Positions 187 through 49,229 of a DNA stretch of 64,000 nucleotides are shown here, one piece after another. Numbering within the stretch: the first letter of the stretch is position 1; each line of letters begins with the position of its first letter. Position numbers and translations under genes: made by a program. Below the pieces are notes generated by a model. The model did no database searches. It saw only the letters and a list, made by a program, of their open reading frames with translations, and had not been told where the DNA came from. The stretch is from Bacteriovoracaceae bacterium (GTDB lineage Bacteria; Bdellovibrionota; Bacteriovoracia; Bacteriovoracales; Bacteriovoracaceae): assembly GCA_947446575.1 (NCBI GenBank), contig CANFHC010000001.1, positions 1-64,000 of the forward strand, read 5' to 3'.

Positions 187-373
187 AATTAGAACACTAT
201 TCTACATTTTTGGAACTACTGAATTCCCCCCTTTAGAGAAAACAGACAATCGCTCCTGCTCATGTCTGCATACATCACATCCTGTGAATAAAGGAACGCC
301 TTGTGGCCACTCTGATAATTTTCTTGAGGGCACTTTTTAAAAAATCTGGTTAAAATGAAATGAACTTACTTAT
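187..373. repeat. 188-bp dispersed repeat, copy 1
   Basis: This stretch is nearly identical to 2335-2522 and, over its right 80 percent, to 7116-7264. The shared block starts at AATTAGAACACTATTC and ends at GAACTTACTTAT. It contains a C-run, a conserved segment around TCTGCATACATCACATCC and an A-run near the right end. No reading frame stays open in all copies, and I see no terminal inverted repeats. The right end runs directly into a histidine-kinase tail (376-519). It could be a miniature mobile element, the scar of a lost element, or a recombination substrate. Confidence 0.85.
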
Positions 374-375
374 TT

Positions 376-519
376 AAGAAAGAAATAGGAAAAGGAACAG
401 GACTAGGATTAAGTATTTGTAGCACCATAATTAAAAACCACAGTGGCAAGTTTTCACTTGAACCAGATACTGCCAATACCACTTTTTCTATTGAATTGCC
501 CTTTTTACAAAATAAATAA
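376..519 (+). pseudogene. C-terminal fragment of a sensor histidine kinase
   Basis: The frame from 376 to the TAA at 517-519 encodes about 47 residues containing GKGTGLGLSI, the G2 box of the HATPase_c ATP-binding domain, followed by the usual short kinase tail ending ELPFLQNK. Sensor, dimerisation domain, phospho-accepting His and N box are all absent: the sequence upstream is the 188-bp repeat. This is therefore the last strand of a kinase whose 5' part was deleted or replaced at the repeat junction. The match to the G2 box is clear; the type of sensor cannot be known. Confidence 0.8.
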
Positions 520-525
520 AAGCAG

Positions 526-705
526 GTGAAGTACTCGGATTTTGTAATACTTATAGTATCGATTTTAATTTTTCTTACTCACTCTCAATGCGACAACTTA
601 TATGACAGGCTACAGTTTGAGCGAAATGTACCACTTATTTTGACCGGTAAGACGCCTACAAGTTCTTTTGAAGGAAGAGTTCTTACCAAGGCCTTTAAAG
701 CCTAA
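526..705 (+). CDS. small secreted or membrane-anchored ORF, uncertain
   Basis: A GTG-initiated frame of 59 codons follows the kinase remnant by six bases. Residues 5-18 form a hydrophobic segment (DFVILIVSILIFLT) followed by HSQC, which could be a poor lipobox or signal peptide end. The remainder is polar. The stop overlaps the last bases of the convergent gene 702-2204 by four bases. There is only a weak purine stretch before the GTG. It may be a real small exported protein, an old second gene of the kinase operon, or chance. Confidence 0.3.
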   Translation: MKYSDFVILIVSILIFLTHSQCDNLYDRLQFERNVPLILTGKTPTSSFEGRVLTKAFKA

Positions 706-2204
706 GGATCCTTTTGGCATTTGCCTTTAGCGTGGGACCAAACAGCTCCAAGAACTGTGCTTTCATTTTCGTATTTAACACATTTTAATCCAACGTCACA
801 TGAATACTCAAATTCTCCGCTAGAGGTTCTCTCTCCATCTTCGTAGAGTGGACAGTTTTGTCCTTGTAAGCCGCGAAGATGACAAGCTCGAAATTTTTCG
901 TTACTACTTTCTTCTGAGCAACGGGCCACATTATTATTTTTTAGAACTGATATCAACTCATTATTAAACCAGTTTGAGCATTGATCATCCGTCGCACATT
1001 TTGTTTTTGGATGAGAAAAAGTAAGTCCTGCGACCATATTTTTCATCATGATATTTAATGAATCTTGAACGGTCATGGTGTTATTTAATTTAGCTTTTAA
1101 AAAATCATTATGGCAAAGTGCCGAAATATATTTAACAGACATACTTTTATTCGCTACAGATTCTGGTAATGCAATTCTTCTAGAAACTAGATTTACAGTA
1201 TTTGAAAATTCTTTAGTGATAGCAGCATCTTCTCCAACCCCCATGAATTTAAATCCTCCTGATCCTTTGTAATCAGTGACAAATTCAAGATTAGTAGAGC
1301 AGGTAAATGAAATATATCTTTTTTTAGCGATACCATTTTCAAGAATTATTTTTCCCGCACGATCACGTTTCCAGTAATCAAAATTACCATCATTCATGAG
1401 TACAGGAGACAGGCTATCAGCCATAATCTCGGCATTAGTTGAATACAGACGTTTAAAACTTATTGAAGGACCAGCTTCCACAGAAGCTCCAAGAAATTCA
1501 AATTTTACTTGTAACGAAATGTTAGCTTCAATTTTTGTAATTGTAGCCGTTTTGATCGCTTGGTGACTAGCAGAAACATATGGGCTGCTTGCTCGATCAG
1601 AAACTAAACTCGAGATCAGTTCTTCAGAAGACTTGTAATCTTGTCTTATGGAATCCTCGATTGATTCTTTTTTAGATTTCAAAGGGCCAACAATCATTTC
1701 TTGATCTTCATTATTTAGAAAAGTTGTTCGTTTAATGACTTCTTTTTTCATAACAGATTCAATCTTTTGCAATTGAACTTCTTCACTCGCGCCACCGGCA
1801 TCAATAGAATCCAAAGTTAAATTGGCCAAAGAAAGTAATTCATTTCTTAATTCAGGTGCAGCCAACTCAAGATCCTTTTCCATATTTGTTTTGATTTCTT
1901 CTCGAGCGAGTTCTGAACTCATTTTATTTTCAAGAGCTGCTTTATAAGCTTGGACCACTTGCATCCGGATTTTATCGGCTAAAAGATTTGTTTCTTTCTT
2001 TGCACGAGCATCAATTGATAGGCCCTTAGCTTCGTAGTTCAATTCTCTTTGATAAGCATCAAAGGCCAAGTTCGAAATTTTATTTTGTAATTTAAGTAGG
2101 GAATCTACACGCATTTGCTTTTGCTTAAAACTCACATCTGCATAACTACTAAAACTAGTAGCTGAGATGAAGACCGCTAAAACCAGTAAACGTGAATAAG
2201 ACAT
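702..2204 (-). CDS. secreted coiled-coil-rich orphan protein
   Basis: 500 residues with a clear Sec signal peptide (SYSRLLVLAVFISATSFSSYA, cut before DVSF). Residues 25-220 are rich in Lys, Glu and Ala with heptad-like spacing, suggesting an alpha-helical region. The C-terminal third carries about ten cysteines in a pattern consistent with disulfides (CHNDF, CATDDQCSNWF, CSEES, CHLRGLQGQNC, YSCDVGLKC), so the protein is likely folded in the periplasm or outside the cell. AAGGAG precedes ATG by five bases. I recognise no family. It stands alone between two repeat copies, which fits accessory DNA. Confidence 0.8.
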   Translation of the reverse strand: MSYSRLLVLAVFISATSFSSYADVSFKQKQMRVDSLLKLQNKISNLAFDAYQRELNYEAKGLSIDARAKKETNLLADKIRMQVVQAYKAALENKMSSELAREEIKTNMEKDLELAAPELRNELLSLANLTLDSIDAGGASEEVQLQKIESVMKKEVIKRTTFLNNEDQEMIVGPLKSKKESIEDSIRQDYKSSEELISSLVSDRASSPYVSASHQAIKTATITKIEANISLQVKFEFLGASVEAGPSISFKRLYSTNAEIMADSLSPVLMNDGNFDYWKRDRAGKIILENGIAKKRYISFTCSTNLEFVTDYKGSGGFKFMGVGEDAAITKEFSNTVNLVSRRIALPESVANKSMSVKYISALCHNDFLKAKLNNTMTVQDSLNIMMKNMVAGLTFSHPKTKCATDDQCSNWFNNELISVLKNNNVARCSEESSNEKFRACHLRGLQGQNCPLYEDGERTSSGEFEYSCDVGLKCVKYENESTVLGAVWSHAKGKCQKDP

Positions 2205-2334
2205 AAAAACTCCTTTTCTGGGGCAGTGTTAGTATATGGCTTTTCTTGGTCCGAAGGGCCTGCTGTGTAGATTTTACAGATAGGTAATAAGTACATATTT
2301 ACTGAGTCTTAGGTCGTTAAATGACTATAGTTGA

Positions 2335-2522
2335 AATTAGAACACTATTCTACTTTTTTGGAAATACTGAATTCCCCTCTTTAGAGAAACAGACAATCAC
2401 TCCTGCTTATGTCTGCATACATCACATCCTGTGAATAAAGGAACGCCTTGTGGCCACTCTGATAATTTTCTTGAGGGCACTTTTTAAAAAAATCTGGTTA
2501 TAATGAAATGAACTTACTTATA
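2335..2522. repeat. 188-bp dispersed repeat, copy 2
   Basis: This is the full-length second copy, in the same orientation as the others. It differs from copy 1 by scattered substitutions and by one or two bases in the C- and A-runs, so the copies are not freshly duplicated. The 130 bases to its left (2205-2334) are the upstream region of the secreted-protein gene and show nothing else. To its right is a short in-frame stretch with an internal stop (2524-2619) that may be another gene tail. Confidence 0.85.
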
Positions 2523-2523
2523 T

Positions 2524-2619
2524 AGTGATGTTTTAAAAAATGAACTGGAAACTTTTTCGCTTTAGTCGCCAAATATTTCGAAACTTTTCACAGACTGGCT
2601 GACTTCACTTAATGATTAA
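2524..2619 (+). pseudogene. possible 3' gene remnant beside repeat copy 2
   Basis: Reading on from the repeat, one frame gives SDVLKNELETFSL, a TAG, then SPNISKLFTDWLTSLND and TAA. The residue use looks protein-like on both sides of the TAG. With the kinase tail at copy 1 and the tail at copy 3, this makes a gene 3' end at the same side of each repeat copy. It is short and unrecognised, so chance is a real alternative. Confidence 0.25.
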
Positions 2620-5114
2620 TTTAATTTTTTTCTGTCTTTAAATTCACGCTCCCTTTGAGATCCGTCTGAAAGACCGTATTTCTCCAAAACACCAATGTGA
2701 CTGATAATATCACTGGTTAGATTTCCATTTTGATATAATATCAATTGCACATAACCCAATATTTTTTTCGATAACTCTTCTTTTCTTTCATAAAGCGCTT
2801 CAAAGCGCATCTCCCCCACCCCCAGCTCAATCAATGACGGAATAAGTTTTGCGGCCGACTGCGGAGTTGCATTAAACATCGTATTACGGCACTCCTGATC
2901 GGCCTTTATCTGATGATGATTTCCAAATTGATCTTTCAATTCCAGTCGGTGCTTTTCACAAGGCTTTCCACAATCTTTAAAACTCGATCCTTTGCTCATA
3001 AAGGCTGCAAACACACAATGTTCCATATGAAACGACGGCATATACTGGTGAGTGGTGACTTCAACTTTAGCTGCATCGGTATGGCGTATAAGATCCATTA
3101 ACTGAGCCGAACTCAAATCGTATGAAGCACAAAGTGTACTTAGTTTTTTATTGAAAAAATAATTGGCCGTCATTGAATTGGTAACATTTAAACTAAAGTC
3201 ACCGCGAAGTTCAAAATTTTTATCCTGAAAATAAGACACGGCTCCTAGATTGCGGCAAAGAACTATATCTGGATTTGCACGCTCGATAATTTTAAAATTG
3301 TAATACTCATTAGGTTTTAAAATTCGAGTCGTGGCAATTCCTACTTTTATACCTTTCGTTTTTAACAAGGCAACGGATTCAGCATAACCTTTACCAAATT
3401 CATAATCTAAATAAACAACACCGAGAGTGTCTCCCAGTTTTTCATAAAATTCCAGGAAGTCTGTGACCTGATCCATTTCCCTAAGCATGACGTTCAATCT
3501 AGTCTGTTCTTTACTTTGATGGGCCACAACCGGGTGGCTCGGCTCACCAATGACGATCGCCTCTCGTGCGACTCTTTTTTCCATTAACTTTTCAGTGAAT
3601 TCACGACGAACTTTTTTAAGAATTTTCTGGTGAATATAAAATGATTTTTTTGCAGTTAATGAAAACTCATCCAGGATGAAGCACGTTCCCCCCAGAGCTC
3701 CCAGTTCTTCAGACAGGGCCCATTTTGTTATCGGATTCGCTTTAGAAACTTCAACAATTTCGTCATCAGAGCTCTTCACCGTAACAATATTTTGTCCATC
3801 ACTCACTGTGACGACAAGCGGAGATCCGATAACGGCCTCAACTAAAATGCTGACGGGAATTCTTTTTTTTGAATTTTTATCGGTATAAGAAAGTGTTAAT
3901 TTTTTTTCAATAATTGCATCGTGATTAAAATAAACCAGAAAGCCATTTTGAATCGATGACAAATTAAATTCTTTACCAAAAGTCAGTTCGTAACTATTGT
4001 TATTAATTTTTCGAACACCGTAGAGATTTCCCCCTACTTCTGTTTTTTTCCCTAGAAGGGCCCCGGCAATTAACAAACCATCACCATTTTTTAAATGAGG
4101 GTAATTAACTTCAACTACAACGGATTTTGGTTTAATTTTAGTAACGATTCCAATTTCAACTCCCCGGTGAGCTCCAAATTTTCCATCAACTAATTTTTGA
4201 TGATCCACTCCATGAAGCCATCCGGAAAAAAATCCACGAGAATAAGTCAAACCCATCTCAGTTTTTGCTGAATCAATTTCTTTTTCTGATAAATTCGCCC
4301 CACCTATTGCGTGATCAATGGCCTCACGATAATTTTTAGCGGCCGATGCAACGTACTCGGGGGTCTTCAGCCTTCCTTCGACTTTGAAACTTTCAATTCC
4401 AATGTTTAGCAGCTCGGGAATCTCGGCTATACCGCAAAGGTCTTTTGGAGAAACGAGATATTTCACATCCCCTAGCTCACGCTTTTGTCCATCGACGATC
4501 ATTTCATATTCCAGACGACAGCTTTGGGCGCACTGGCCGCGGTTGGCACTTCGGCCGCCAATACTTTCAGATGTAAAACACTGCCCCGAATAAGCGACAC
4601 AGAGGGCACCGTGAACGAAGACTTCAAGCTCACATTCGGTTTTTTCTTTAATGGCACGCATTTCTGAAAGACTAACTTCTCTGCCTAAAACAAATCTTTT
4701 TATTTTTAAATCAGAAAGTAAACTCATGGCCTCGTGATTGGTGACTGTCATTTGAGTTGAGCCGTGAATGATCTGGTTTGGCGCCATTTCTCTCACCAGT
4801 TTTGCCAGCCCCACGTCCTGAACAATTAAAGCATCAGGCGCTAAAGGAAGTACTTCTTGCAATAGCTTAACGACGTCTTCGATCTCTTCTTGATAGATAA
4901 CAACGTTGAACGCGAGGTTGACTCTTACACCATATAAGTGACAGGTATCGATCATTTCTTTTAATTCTGTGACGGAAAAATCGGTGGTGCGGCCACGGGC
5001 ATTGAAGTGTGGCATCCCGACATAAATTGCATCTGCGCCATTGTGAATGGCGGCAAGGCACATATTCATGTTCCCAACTGGAAGAAGTAGTTCACTTTTT
5101 TGATTCTTAGACAT
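2616..5114 (-). CDS. U32-family protein (RlhA-like hydroxylase/peptidase family)
   Basis: 832 residues from ATG at 5114; an in-frame TTG at 5132 would add six residues, but neither start has a strong ribosome site. The N-terminal half is the U32 domain: SELLLPVGN, then the signature GGRSANRGQCAQSCRLEYE with its cysteines near residues 185-200. A DUF3656-like middle follows, and a second U32-like part has HCVFAAFMS, CGKPCEKHR and ECRNTMFN. Characterised relatives (E. coli RlhA and TrhP) use prephenate-dependent hydroxylation of rRNA or tRNA and probably bind an Fe-S cluster through these cysteines. The ~830-residue, two-module form is common outside enterobacteria. The RNA target here is inference. 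Confidence 0.9.
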   Translation of the reverse strand: MSKNQKSELLLPVGNMNMCLAAIHNGADAIYVGMPHFNARGRTTDFSVTELKEMIDTCHLYGVRVNLAFNVVIYQEEIEDVVKLLQEVLPLAPDALIVQDVGLAKLVREMAPNQIIHGSTQMTVTNHEAMSLLSDLKIKRFVLGREVSLSEMRAIKEKTECELEVFVHGALCVAYSGQCFTSESIGGRSANRGQCAQSCRLEYEMIVDGQKRELGDVKYLVSPKDLCGIAEIPELLNIGIESFKVEGRLKTPEYVASAAKNYREAIDHAIGGANLSEKEIDSAKTEMGLTYSRGFFSGWLHGVDHQKLVDGKFGAHRGVEIGIVTKIKPKSVVVEVNYPHLKNGDGLLIAGALLGKKTEVGGNLYGVRKINNNSYELTFGKEFNLSSIQNGFLVYFNHDAIIEKKLTLSYTDKNSKKRIPVSILVEAVIGSPLVVTVSDGQNIVTVKSSDDEIVEVSKANPITKWALSEELGALGGTCFILDEFSLTAKKSFYIHQKILKKVRREFTEKLMEKRVAREAIVIGEPSHPVVAHQSKEQTRLNVMLREMDQVTDFLEFYEKLGDTLGVVYLDYEFGKGYAESVALLKTKGIKVGIATTRILKPNEYYNFKIIERANPDIVLCRNLGAVSYFQDKNFELRGDFSLNVTNSMTANYFFNKKLSTLCASYDLSSAQLMDLIRHTDAAKVEVTTHQYMPSFHMEHCVFAAFMSKGSSFKDCGKPCEKHRLELKDQFGNHHQIKADQECRNTMFNATPQSAAKLIPSLIELGVGEMRFEALYERKEELSKKILGYVQLILYQNGNLTSDIISHIGVLEKYGLSDGSQREREFKDRKKLN

Positions 5115-5199
5115 AAACTTGTTGTAATTCAATTAACTCATTATGAGGAGCCTATAGGTAAAATTAGAGCACTAATTTTAAAACTTATCAATGCCTGGG

Positions 5200-5700
5200 T
5201 TAATTTTGTAAAAAAGCATCTTCGGTTTTTTTATCATCGATAATCACTTTTAGCACGTGATCTTGAGTTTCACTCCACTCTCCTTTAGTATTTTCACAAT
5301 TAACTTCTTTTCCACTTTTTGTTTTAAAAAGTACAATTCTCGGTTGAGCTAGCATATCAAAAACATGACAGACATGTTTTTCGTTTTCCCATGTGTGAGC
5401 GAATATATACATTTCATCTTTAGAAAGAGTAACCCGTGGCTTAAGCGAAAACTCAATATCGTTAATTTCTAATTCAGGTTGTCCCTTTATTTGGTAGAAT
5501 CCTTTCCAACCATAATCTTCAGATTCGTAAGTTGGACCTTCAACGTAAGTTCGTCCTTCGTAAAAAACCATCCCCAATCTTTTAGGGCCTTGTAGAACAC
5601 TTGTTACTTTAGATCTACCGCCATGCTTATTTGAATAAGCTTGTGTCCCCAATAAAAAGGGCATTATTGATAAGAGAAGAATTGCGGCATTGATTTTCAT
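5200..5700 (-). CDS. secreted orphan protein, 166 aa
   Basis: A signal peptide (MKINAAILLLSIMPFLLGTQA) is followed by a ~145-residue mature part rich in beta-type sequence, with two cysteines (HVCHVF and VNCENT) that could form a disulfide. No family is recognised. There is no ribosome binding site; instead TAAAAT lies exactly six bases upstream of ATG, as expected for a -10 element of a leaderless transcript. It is separated from the U32 gene by 85 bases. Confidence 0.75.
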   Translation of the reverse strand: MKINAAILLLSIMPFLLGTQAYSNKHGGRSKVTSVLQGPKRLGMVFYEGRTYVEGPTYESEDYGWKGFYQIKGQPELEINDIEFSLKPRVTLSKDEMYIFAHTWENEKHVCHVFDMLAQPRIVLFKTKSGKEVNCENTKGEWSETQDHVLKVIIDDKKTEDAFLQN

Positions 5701-5907
5701 TTGTTTATTTTAAAACACTTTTTTTAAAAATTAGTATTTAGTTTTGCTGAAACAAATTTTAATATTGATTGCAGGCAGATAGCTACTCAAATACCCTCCT
5801 TCGCGATGCCACTTTTTTGTGGATACCATTCATTCAAATACTGGCCCTAGGTGTTTGAAATAACTAATTCCCCTTATCAAAATAAAATAATCATTTACAA
5901 TAAAAGA

Positions 5908-6552
5908 ATGAATAAATTAATCCTTTCCCTTCTACTAATAACTTTAATATTACCCACTGTTTTTTCTGCTGAAAAAAATAATTTTGATTATATCGTTGGA
6001 GCTAAAGACAGCTCTATCGACATGCTGATTAAGGCTACCAAAATGCTAGAAGATGGAAAAATTTCAAAAGATAAATATATCGAGGTGGCAAAAGAAGTGA
6101 GTAAAATGGCAGAATACTCCAAAAAAACAGTGGCCGCTGCTCCTAAAAAAATAACTGATGAGCAATTAAAGAAACTAAACGAAGAAAGAGTTCAAAATAA
6201 ATTAAAACCAATTGATGATGTAGATCTTGTTGAAGAAACTATTCAAAATGAATTAGATCATAGAGTAGAAATTAATCTACAAAATAGGAAAGACAAAAAA
6301 CCTCCACTTCCCGCAATGCCAATAATGGAAAAACTTGGAGCCTTAAATTCAGATCGTGAGAGTAAAAGACAAAATAGCATTAAGAACTCTCAAAGTGCTG
6401 ATTCAATGGCCAACGAAGTCGCTGGTCGAAAAAGTGGTATTTTAGAAATTTATAAATCTTATAATAAAAAAATTGACGATAAAAAACTAGACGAACTTAC
6501 TAAAAGTGAAAAAACGTTAAGTGAAATTATAAAAGAAATGAATCAAAATTAA
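5908..6552 (+). CDS. secreted Lys/Glu-rich orphan protein
   Basis: The start at 5908 is chosen because it begins a proper signal peptide (MNKLILSLLLITLILPTVFSA, cut before EKNN); the in-frame ATG at 5851 would place 19 polar residues before it. The 214-residue product is highly charged and mostly helical in composition, without cysteines or recognisable domains. TACAAT (5896-5901) sits six bases before ATG with TTATCA 16 bases further upstream, and there is no ribosome site, so the transcript may be leaderless. The stop abuts the ygiQ remnant on the other strand. Confidence 0.7.
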   Translation: MNKLILSLLLITLILPTVFSAEKNNFDYIVGAKDSSIDMLIKATKMLEDGKISKDKYIEVAKEVSKMAEYSKKTVAAAPKKITDEQLKKLNEERVQNKLKPIDDVDLVEETIQNELDHRVEINLQNRKDKKPPLPAMPIMEKLGALNSDRESKRQNSIKNSQSADSMANEVAGRKSGILEIYKSYNKKIDDKKLDELTKSEKTLSEIIKEMNQN

Positions 6553-7117
6553 TCAAATAGCTCTTTAGTTAAATCAAATAATTTTTGCTTCGCTAAGTAA
6601 TTCTTAACAAAAGTTTTGTTATCAGGCTTATACCAGAAGAAAAAAGTTTTATGCTTTGTTTTATCATCAAGACTGATAGCAGTCTTAACTTCTTTAAGTG
6701 TATATGGATGATACCCAGAAAAATAAATTTCAGTGGCAACTGTCATTGGTGTTGGAGTGAAATCCTGAACCGGCTCTAGCCTATAACCAAATTTTTTAGT
6801 TTTAATTGCTAAACGAGCCAGGAGCAACTTTAAGCCGTCCGGAAATATGATGAGTGATTAACTGCTCTACATACTCTTCGTCTTTTTTTGGATCAAGAGA
6901 GCGCTCATTAAACATTAAATCGTAACGAAGCCCTGAGCTCACAAATGCTTTTTTTTTACTTTCGGATGAGCGGCTACCTCGCGATAGAGCTCAGTCATCT
7001 TTTGTGGATTAGCATCAAGATTTTTGCAAATCACCGGTTGCACACACGATGGAGCTGCACACTTGTCACATAAATCTTGATCTATTCCTTTCATCTGATA
7101 CATATTAGCGGAAGGCC
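6549..7117 (-). pseudogene. ygiQ: ygiQ (radical SAM protein) remnant, frameshifted and deleted
   Basis: Three pieces match the C-terminal half of the YgiQ family in order: GGPSANMYQMKG with CAAPSCVQPVIC (about 7117-6960); GLRYDLMFNERSLDP to HHISGRLKVAP (6947-6850); and RLEPVQDFTPTPMTVATEIYF to FFFWYKP (6827-6549). Piece 1 to 2 is broken by a frameshift in an A-run near 6951-6959. Between pieces 2 and 3 about 60 residues are missing and the frame changes. The whole N-terminus with the radical-SAM cysteines is gone, replaced by repeat copy 3 at a G-run inside GGP. The gene cannot make an active enzyme. Confidence 0.92.
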
Positions 7118-7264
7118 CCCCCTTTAGAGAAAACAGACAATCGCTCCTGCTCATGTCTGCATACATCACATCCTGTGAATTAAGGAGCGCCTTGTGGCCA
7201 CTCTGATAATTTTATTGAGGGAACTTTTAAAAAAATCTGGTTATAATGAAATGAACTTACTTAT
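7116..7264. repeat. 188-bp dispersed repeat, copy 3 (left-truncated)
   Basis: This copy aligns with the right ~149 bases of copies 1 and 2. Its left end stops at the C-run, which is also the GG of the GGP motif in the ygiQ remnant, so the junction falls in shared homopolymer. Its right end at CTTACTTAT runs into another 3' gene fragment (7268-7315). On the minus strand the repeat reads in frame into ygiQ, producing a chimeric 76-codon ORF that I regard as accidental. Confidence 0.85.
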
Positions 7265-7267
7265 TTA

Positions 7268-7315
7268 AATGCTGGTCAGTTAGTAACGGAATATTATTGG
7301 AAAATTAAACCATAA
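7268..7315 (+). pseudogene. 3' tail of a lost gene (NAGQLVTEYYWKIKP)
   Basis: Immediately right of repeat copy 3, one frame encodes NAGQLVTEYYWKIKP and TAA. It is followed after 25 bases by a terminator hairpin with a T-run (7341-7370). A short coding tail plus its terminator, with no 5' part, is what remains when the upstream portion of a gene is deleted. The family cannot be told from 15 residues. Confidence 0.45.
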
Positions 7316-9460: not shown

Positions 9461-9673
9461 CCCGGGGATAGGACGAATTAAAGCCATAGCTCTACAACTA
9501 ATTCGATTCGGGGACGCCCTTTTTAATTCAAGGACGGGCTATCGCCCACTTTCATTGTTCTTTTTTGATTTTTAAACGCCAAAATACTGTTGTGAAAAAT
9601 GCTCTTCTTATATAAAAATTTGGATATATTAGATTTATGGTTGCCTTCTTTTCTAACCAGCTTTTTTATTATC
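9461..9673. other. non-coding stretch with a GC-rich hairpin
   Basis: Between the nadD remnant and the next gene I see no convincing reading frame. The segment 9508-9548 is GC-richer than its surroundings, contains GGGGACGCCC and ends in a small hairpin GGGC-TATC-GCCC (9537-9548) followed by T-rich sequence. It may be an old mobile-element end or a weak terminator. Confidence 0.4.
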
Positions 9674-46937: not shown

Positions 46938-49229
46938 CTACAGGTGAGTGAAATAGCTTTGGATTTGTTGGACTACTTCCACATAGGTTAATTTATTATA
47001 CTTTATTTTTAACTCATCAAAAACCTCAACAAGTGAAATCGCACCAAGTTGCTTTTGATCAGAATTATCATTTTTTTCAAGGCAGACAAGATAGCGGGTC
47101 ACAAAATCTTCAATGGCAACGAAGGCCATGCACACTGGAGAAGCTGTAATACTCAATGATTCAGAAAAGCCCTTTCCTGATTTAATTCCATGGTGTTCTC
47201 TTACAAAATTCGTCAACTCTTTTGGAGCTTTGATAATATTTTCTAAAATAGTAGCCGCACTGTCAGCATGAGAGAATATAAGATTTTTTTCATCTTCGCT
47301 TAAATTTGAGCTCTCTGCAAAATAACGATGATGAATTTTGATTAGCCGATCACTCTTTAGACATAAATCATGAAAGAGCGATAGGTAGATAATCTTATTT
47401 TTTGTATGTTCCTTGCTCCATAGAAATTTATCATAAATCTGTAAGAATATAAAACATGTTAAGTGTAAATGAGTATACCCGTAAGTGAGTTTATTGTTTT
47501 TTATGCTTAATCGAAAGTCGTTAATTCCACTTTCTGTATTCATTAAAATATCAATTGATTTAACAAGTACTTTGATAATTTCAATATTGTACTTATCGAA
47601 TGAAGAATTTTTAAAAACTTCCAGCAGAATTTCAAAACTATCTGAGTTAAGTTTCATGCGCTCTGGGAAACTTAGGTTTGGATTTTTAAATCGTTCCAGA
47701 AATAAGTTATTTAAAAAAGCATTAGCCTTACTTGCTTCTTCTGAATTGATATAAAGCTCTTTTCCACATCGAACCAAAACTCTTTCTAGGTCTTTGGCAC
47801 TCAACTTCATATCAGGCTGAAATTTTTTAATGTATTCAAAACCGTCAGATTTTTTTATTCTCGCATAGGCTGAAAAATCAAGCGTTGTCTCAGCAAGATT
47901 CATAAAATAAATAATACTAATCGAATGGTATTCAACAGTCGTTGCTTTTATATCTGCAGCAATGGCCCCCTGAGGTTTTTGTAATCCTGGGAGCTTAAAA
48001 ACCGTCGTCTTCTCATTTTCATTTTCTTCATGTTCTGCTTCCGCCAGTTTTGCTTGCTTTTTCCCCGCTTCAGCTCGCTCTTTGGCTATCATTGCAATTT
48101 GTTCTTTGCTTTTTTCTATTTTCGCGCGCGCCTCGATCTCTTTTCTTTTTTCATTCTCTAGTTGCTCTCTTTCTTTTTCGGCTTTTTCTTGCTCAAATCT
48201 TTCCTTTTCCAATCTATCTTTTTCAGCCTTTTCTCTGGCAACTTTGGCAATTCTCTCTTTTCCTCTTTCTATTCTTTCGCGCGCTTCCTGTTCTCTTATT
48301 CGTTCTTTTTCTAATCGTTCTTTCTCTTTTGCCAGCTGTTCTTTTTCTTTTTCTAATCTTTCTTTTTCTTTTAAGAGCATCTCTTTTTCTTTTAAGAGCA
48401 ACTCTTTTTCTAATCTTTCTTTATCTGCTATTTCTTTTAATAATCTTTCTTTTTCTAATCTTTCCTTTTCAGCTTTTTCTTTTTCAAGCTTTTCTTTTTC
48501 AACCTTCTCTTTTGCCAATCTTTCTTTTTCATTTTTTTCGGCTTCAATTTTTTCTTTTTCAATTTTTTCTTTTTCTAATCTTTCTTTGTCAGCTTTTTCT
48601 TTTTCAAGTTTTTCTTGCTCTAGTTTTTCCTGTCTTGCCTTTCCTCTTTGAATCCGCTCTTCAATTGCTCTTTTCTTTTCTTCTTTTTCTCTCTCTAAAC
48701 GCACTTTTTCCGCTTCTTCACGTGCTTTTCTATGTTGTTCCGCTATCTCTTTTTCAAACCGCTCTCTTTCTTCAGCCTCTGCTTGTAATCTTAGTTCTCG
48801 TTCTCTATCTGCTCTTTCTTTTTCAATCCGCTCCCGTTCCATCGCCTCTTCTTCGACTAAGATATTTCTCTCTTCTTTTCCTAGTAAAAATCCAATATAG
48901 TCGATAATTTTTTGATAAGTTGGATTCTCACCAATTGCAATGGCTTTGGGATAGTTTGTGGTCTTCTCTCCTAAAATAACTAAATCTATTTCTTTACTTA
49001 AGTCTTCTTTATTTGCAATTAACCAATCACCCAATTTTTGTGCTACAGGATCTTTTCCAATAACATCATTACATAAAATAAGTTCCATATCGGGTAAGAT
49101 TTGTAAAATAGAGATCGCATCGGCCGATGACGGCTTAACGATGACTTCAACGCCATACTTCGAGGAAATTTTCCCCTGAAGAATTTTGGAGAGCTCTTTG
49201 TCATTCAAGACAACTAATAATTGAGACAT
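46938..49229 (-). CDS. pseudo-receiver / long KE coiled-coil / HD-domain protein
   Basis: 763 residues in three parts. Residues 1-120 resemble a receiver fold (SQLLVVLNDKELSKILQGKI, MELILCNDVIG). Residues about 122-405 are almost entirely Glu, Lys, Arg with Leu, Ile, Ala in heptad order, a single long coiled coil of roughly 280 residues. From about 430 on is a helical part with an HD-GYP-like core: YLSLFHDLC, FSHADSAATILENI and REHHGIKSGKGF, where HHGIKSGKG stands at the place of HHExxDGxGYP. Whether it still cleaves c-di-GMP is unclear because the GYP is altered. Confidence 0.85.
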   Translation of the reverse strand: MSQLLVVLNDKELSKILQGKISSKYGVEVIVKPSSADAISILQILPDMELILCNDVIGKDPVAQKLGDWLIANKEDLSKEIDLVILGEKTTNYPKAIAIGENPTYQKIIDYIGFLLGKEERNILVEEEAMERERIEKERADRERELRLQAEAEERERFEKEIAEQHRKAREEAEKVRLEREKEEKKRAIEERIQRGKARQEKLEQEKLEKEKADKERLEKEKIEKEKIEAEKNEKERLAKEKVEKEKLEKEKAEKERLEKERLLKEIADKERLEKELLLKEKEMLLKEKERLEKEKEQLAKEKERLEKERIREQEARERIERGKERIAKVAREKAEKDRLEKERFEQEKAEKEREQLENEKRKEIEARAKIEKSKEQIAMIAKERAEAGKKQAKLAEAEHEENENEKTTVFKLPGLQKPQGAIAADIKATTVEYHSISIIYFMNLAETTLDFSAYARIKKSDGFEYIKKFQPDMKLSAKDLERVLVRCGKELYINSEEASKANAFLNNLFLERFKNPNLSFPERMKLNSDSFEILLEVFKNSSFDKYNIEIIKVLVKSIDILMNTESGINDFRLSIKNNKLTYGYTHLHLTCFIFLQIYDKFLWSKEHTKNKIIYLSLFHDLCLKSDRLIKIHHRYFAESSNLSEDEKNLIFSHADSAATILENIIKAPKELTNFVREHHGIKSGKGFSESLSITASPVCMAFVAIEDFVTRYLVCLEKNDNSDQKQLGAISLVEVFDELKIKYNKLTYVEVVQQIQSYFTHL

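Follow-up and report, generated by a model that had tools for sequence, protein, structure and literature searches.

Elements of the ISCR group are important carriers of resistance genes. No ISCR transposition had reportedly been demonstrated, and the reported size of the ISCR oriIS region is 232 bp (PMC6218425). IS801, a member of the IS91 family in Pseudomonas syringae, gives rise to right-end miniatures of 229, 360, and 679 nt, which represented 26% of the IS801 insertions and were shown experimentally to form by early termination (PMC3189936). These IS801 miniatures were present in the open-access literature, in which neither a genus-wide IS91/ISCR miniature family nor a report of an IS91 element in Bacteriovorax was found.

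The repeat family described here was observed in a window of 64,000 nucleotides (the whole stretch of DNA analyzed), corresponding to the start of contig C1 of a Bacteriovoracaceae MAG of 3.39 Mb in 71 contigs (G000). Like the IS801 miniatures, the copies look like short ori-end fragments of an IS91-family element devoid of inverted repeats, with partial copies near rearranged genes. They differ from them by an inner end whose position is homologous between several species, and by the fact that the miniatures outnumber the full elements in the genus, whereas those of IS801 were observed mostly with a trap assay and are seldom found in genomes. The likeness to ISCR1 and the ISCR group lies in a transposase 37% identical, an origin approximately 230–260 bp downstream with the motif TTCCTATA, and the lack of inverted repeats. 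In contrast to that group, the genus element is chromosomal in Bacteriovoracaceae, was seen with no resistance cargo, exists mostly as solo-origin miniatures, and has its own target preference (GAC/AAC or GGGT). With MITEs, REPINs, and BOX-type repeats, the family shares a short, dispersed, and non-autonomous nature and the existence of an optional module (module B), but it has no inverted repeats and is tied to an IS91-type transposase rather than to a DDE or REP-type one. A classical MITE was rejected on the absence of terminal inverted repeats. The element is of a known kind, and what is unusual is its genus-wide miniature form.

Copies in the window and anatomy of the unit

The preliminary description reported three direct copies of the repeat. 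All three were recovered, in direct orientation and with pairwise identities of 93–96% in the window comparison, and at the settings used the window contained no inverted repeat pair. The total rose to five copies, all on the + strand, as profile searches with profiles built in this analysis added those at positions 5150–5199 and 9468–9615. Copy 1 (175–378) is a miniature with the structure of a solo-oriIS element, its outer (ori) end lying at 175–183 and its inner TTTAAG at 373–378. Copy 2 (2323–2526) is 95% identical to copy 1 across 191 bp. The partial copy at 5150–5199 consists of the ori end only and belongs to a subfamily with the body ..CTTATCAATGCCTGGG. Copy 3 (7117–7268) lacks the left 55 bp approximately and is joined to a ygiQ fragment through a CCCCCC microhomology. 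The fifth copy (9468–9615) is full-length, is preceded by CGGGG, and corresponds to a diverged subfamily recently amplified in the relative G007. The boundaries first described for the three copies proved slightly too narrow: the left end is GAC[TC]ATAGG and the right end is TTATTTAAG, with copy 3 being left-truncated. Elsewhere in the window, a tract of 15-bp-period repeats of the Lys/Glu-rich coding type (48142–48674) showed no relation to the family.

When read in the same direction as the window copies, the unit starts with the outer end GAC[TC]ATAGG-N3-AATTAGA, followed by an A/T-rich stretch closing in a C-tract, module B (50 bp, optional), a hairpin 3' of this module, and the inner end ..AATGAAATGAACTTACTTATTTAAG. 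The two ends differ in sequence and no terminal inverted repeats were found, in line with the dispersed family without such repeats that had been announced. Two independently shortened copies, in G004 and on C26, carry internal deletions and retain both ends. Module B is a separate small palindromic repeat (ACAGACAATCGCTCCTGC..ATACATCACATCCTGTGAATAA), found at 243–291 in copy 1, 2389–2437 in copy 2, and 7133–7181 in copy 3; some copies on C49, on C53, and in relatives do not possess it. Parts of module B (CATACATCACATCCTGTGAATAA) were found alone in the relatives G002, G005, G012, and G013. The stems of the hairpin vary with the subfamily (CGCC-TTC-GGCG, AGCC-TGAC-GGCT, GGGC-TATC-GCCC, and others), the paired bases of the GCC-loop-GGC structure being exchanged between subfamilies. 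Stems of at least four pairs were present in 23 of 42 copies compared to 16% of shuffles, and the ori-proximal hairpin was weakly above shuffles. Folding of whole copies was no better than that of shuffles; a structured RNA, for which Rfam gave no match save a weak and unrelated one to a CRISPR repeat, was rejected. In two copies, the inner end has grown into a (CTTA)n run (L037:14355–14380 on C11 and L039:14940–14965 on C13), possibly by replication slippage at the element end.

Distribution and orientation of the copies in the genus

The search of the genome and its relatives that had been suggested at the outset returned many clustered copies, the family being present in 8 of 14 genomes of this Bacteriovorax-like genus, with 75 copies at E<=1e-5 across these eight. 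The G000 MAG contains at least 14 copies, and clusters of copies or parts of them were observed on C1, C11, C13, C26, C37, C49, and C53, as well as elsewhere. The left-end pattern matched 13 times in this genome and the right-end pattern 9 times, against 0 for both reversed-pattern controls, so that the family stands far above chance. When compared with 84,980 species genomes, the left-end pattern matched only in Bacteriovorax-type MAGs, the named ones being MAGs of Bacteriovorax and Bacteriovoracaceae. No match was found in the plasmid DNA and viral contigs searched with the repeat. Many copies are partial and degraded, and several lie within ordinary intergenic DNA. Copies are found on either side of genes and in both orientations; together with the lack of a consensus match in copy 1, this led us to reject a promoter or terminator element. 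The possibility of a composite A-[genes]-D element on C37 was also abandoned, the intervening genes being ordinary.

Neighboring copies on one contig pointed in the same direction in 20 of 22 pairs, with a spacing of 1–3 kb, and the orientation was uniform on 12 of the 14 multi-copy contigs. In G000, the bias toward one replication strand was striking (16 of 17 copies), and orientation followed the GC skew. An explanation by the replication strand was rejected, the counts at the contig level across species being 14 versus 13. It is possible that the co-orientation results from local duplication or from rolling-circle tandem events.

Two observations concern the assembly itself. Many contigs of the G000 MAG terminate at or near repeat copies. 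The ends C37:1–149 and C70:1–149 show an exact inverted overlap of 149 bp, and the two contigs are therefore probably neighbors.

Link to an IS91/ISCR-type transposase

A domain search identified the IS91-type transposase domain Y2_Tnp in 5 of the 14 genus genomes. At four loci (one in G012, one in G005, and two in G002), the repeat directly adjoins the 3' side of a transposase gene of the IS91/ISCR family, and the order and relative orientation of the repeat and the gene are constant in G012, in G005, and at the two close loci of G002. Between G005 and G012, the DNA homology runs unbroken from the outer end of the repeat to the transposase start (69% over 1585 bp). This continuity and the 3' position indicate that the repeat is one end of an insertion sequence. 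The intact G012 protein contains the zinc-binding domain Zn_Tnp_IS91 (PF14319) and Y2_Tnp (PF04986), and the G000 protein encoded on C49 contains PF04986 with the HUH motif NVHFH. Among NCBIfam models, both are nearest to ISCR_clade_Ia, yet below the cut-off of that model, for which an E value of 4e-85 was obtained, and ISCR1 is the nearest named plasmid relative of the transposase, at the 37% identity given above.

In the ISCR1 record, the origin is situated approximately 230 bp past the transposase (..ATACTTCCTATACCCC / ACTTCCTATACCC). The outer end of the genus element, read in the direction of the transposase, is ..GTTCCTATAGTC and is located approximately 260 bp past the gene. The two have TTCCTATA in common, exact in the G000 subfamily and in the form CCTATR in others. 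The outer end thus has both the place and the motif expected for oriIS. We consider it likely that the repeat descends from a rolling-circle insertion sequence of the ISCR/IS91 family that resides in the genus, as a miniature form of its oriIS end that has no transposase.

The only transposase gene of the window's genome (C49:11100–12473) is an open frame. The ori end that adjoins it is related, degenerate, and of another subfamily, and a miniature lies nearby, approximately 2.1 kb off. In G004, G006, G007, and G009, whose assemblies are incomplete, miniatures were present and no transposase was detected. An IS200/IS605 or REP/RAYT derivative was discarded, the single weak Y1_Tnp match being on C58, a contig on which no repeat was found.

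Miniatures, their proposed formation, and broken genes

Most copies are solo-origin units of approximately 145–200 bp that stop at an internal point (..TTATTTAAG), and this inner end is homologous across several species and subfamilies. Past the inner TTTAAG-like point, the full elements of G012, G005, and G002 continue into the 3' region of the transposase. The conservation across subfamilies suggests that the inner end is a signal with a putative ter function. In the relative G007, a 145-bp core is present eight times at different sites without a single mismatch between the copies. GGGT precedes all eight, and their flanks are otherwise unrelated. Eight mismatch-free copies in unlike flanks point to recent movement in the short form. 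Over the whole set, the bases before the outer end were GAC in 19 of 42 copies and AAC in 6 of 42, and these bases may be part of the target or of the element end. The outer end itself is sharp, and the short target favored beside it is mostly GAC/AAC, or GGGT in one subfamily. Defined ends, which the preliminary description had named as counting against its own reading, were found for the left end and in the recently moved G007 relatives.

No target-site duplication was seen in the flanks, and a clean empty site was sought and not obtained. Joining the flanks restored no credible gene; in a joined frame of 336 aa at G007:C47, the end of an integrase turned out to run into an unrelated gene. 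The ter end of the full element had no fixed place: upstream of the transposase start, homology broke off after 44 nt in one pair, while in another subfamily it extended for approximately 110 nt. One pair of copies hinted at a terIS with AAC as its last bases, which a different subfamily did not confirm. At L224:2529–2786 (C21 of G007), a miniature abuts the body of a second subfamily without its outer end; this arrangement corresponds to a nested or tandem event and could reveal the exact cut sites.

The copies might also be dead remnants, left when full-length insertion sequences were truncated by deletions after they had inserted. Many are indeed partial and degraded, one G002 copy is plainly an internally deleted element in which the ori end is followed by a transposase remnant, and most genomic IS801 fragments were judged to be products of reorganization (PMC3189936). 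However, the point at which the miniatures stop is homologous across several species and subfamilies, and the identical G007 copies, both flanks of which differ, need movement in the short form. We regard an origin as dead remnants as unlikely.

We propose the following scheme for the formation of miniatures from the oriIS end. The transposase would act in trans and nick at the outer end, and one strand would be transferred to the target. Transfer would halt early at the inner TTTAAG-like site and leave copies of 145–200 bp, by analogy with IS801. Broken genes would arise later, where copies of the same orientation recombine with each other or at their C-tracts. It is conceivable, and offered here as a tentative idea, that the genus ISCR-like element has a conserved early stop approximately 150 bp from its origin that makes it a built-in miniature generator, with rolling-circle miniatures that exceed the full element in number and persistence and form co-oriented arrays.

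The copies had initially been seen as gene-deletion junctions. Copies do lie at broken genes, in related species too, but the rearrangements are mostly secondary. Immediately after copy 1, a 47-aa histidine-kinase 3' tail (379–519, + strand) shares 86% identity with the terminal part of an intact kinase on C37 (13131–14879), the homology beginning right after TTTAAG. The ygiQ remnant to the left of copy 3 (6549–7122, - strand) is equally real: it is a decayed, 5'-truncated copy with an internal deletion, 93% identical over the fragment to the intact gene in the C6:70243–70413 region. The left edge of copy 3 is not an element end; it is a microhomology join within the repeat, at a run of six C's also present in ygiQ. 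The view that all right ends run into gene 3' tails held for copy 1; several copies are in intergenic DNA, and the short frame beside copy 2 and the 15-residue tail beside copy 3 matched no gene. In G012 (C30), the repeat lies between a kinase remnant on the left and an IS3 transposase remnant on the right, and in G007 the ends of IstB and integrase genes, named from their translated sequences, meet unrelated genes; these G007 junctions are perhaps partly artifacts, since perfect repeats can lead to wrong joins in short-read assemblies. Remnants of IS66 and IS3 transposases also lie beside miniatures in G012 and G005 (L140:1872–2174, L146:784–1209, and L143:3474–3716), which suggests that these regions gather dead mobile DNA.

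The preliminary description had proposed a deletion-promoting element, a relic of a lost element, or a repeat used in recombination. The mobile-element origin is retained, while a stand-alone deletion promoter is not. The truncated genes at copies 1 and 3, in G012, and in G007 would fit an element that actively promotes gene deletions. However, both identifiable broken genes have intact paralogues in the window's genome, so that no unique gene was deleted there, the ygiQ junction is a simple C-tract microhomology, ordinary recombination between repeats is enough, and the G007 junctions carry the reservation made above. Such an activity is very improbable; the broken genes fit recombination between co-oriented copies together with microhomology events, and no dedicated deletion activity is needed. 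An integron-like recombination site, evoked by the array of clustered, co-oriented copies 1–3 kb apart with one or few genes between them, can practically be set aside: no integron integrase exceeded the family cut-off in the genome, all 14 control genomes giving a similar weak match, the sequence is not a palindromic attC, and the repeat is continuous with an IS91-type transposase.

The identity of the repeat explains the scrambled gene fragments without a new deletion machine, and a miniature ISCR-like family would account for a large share of the gene fragments that clutter these genomes. This genus, whose ISCR-like origins have apparently moved recently as short copies, would be a natural system for the study of start, stop, and miniature formation.
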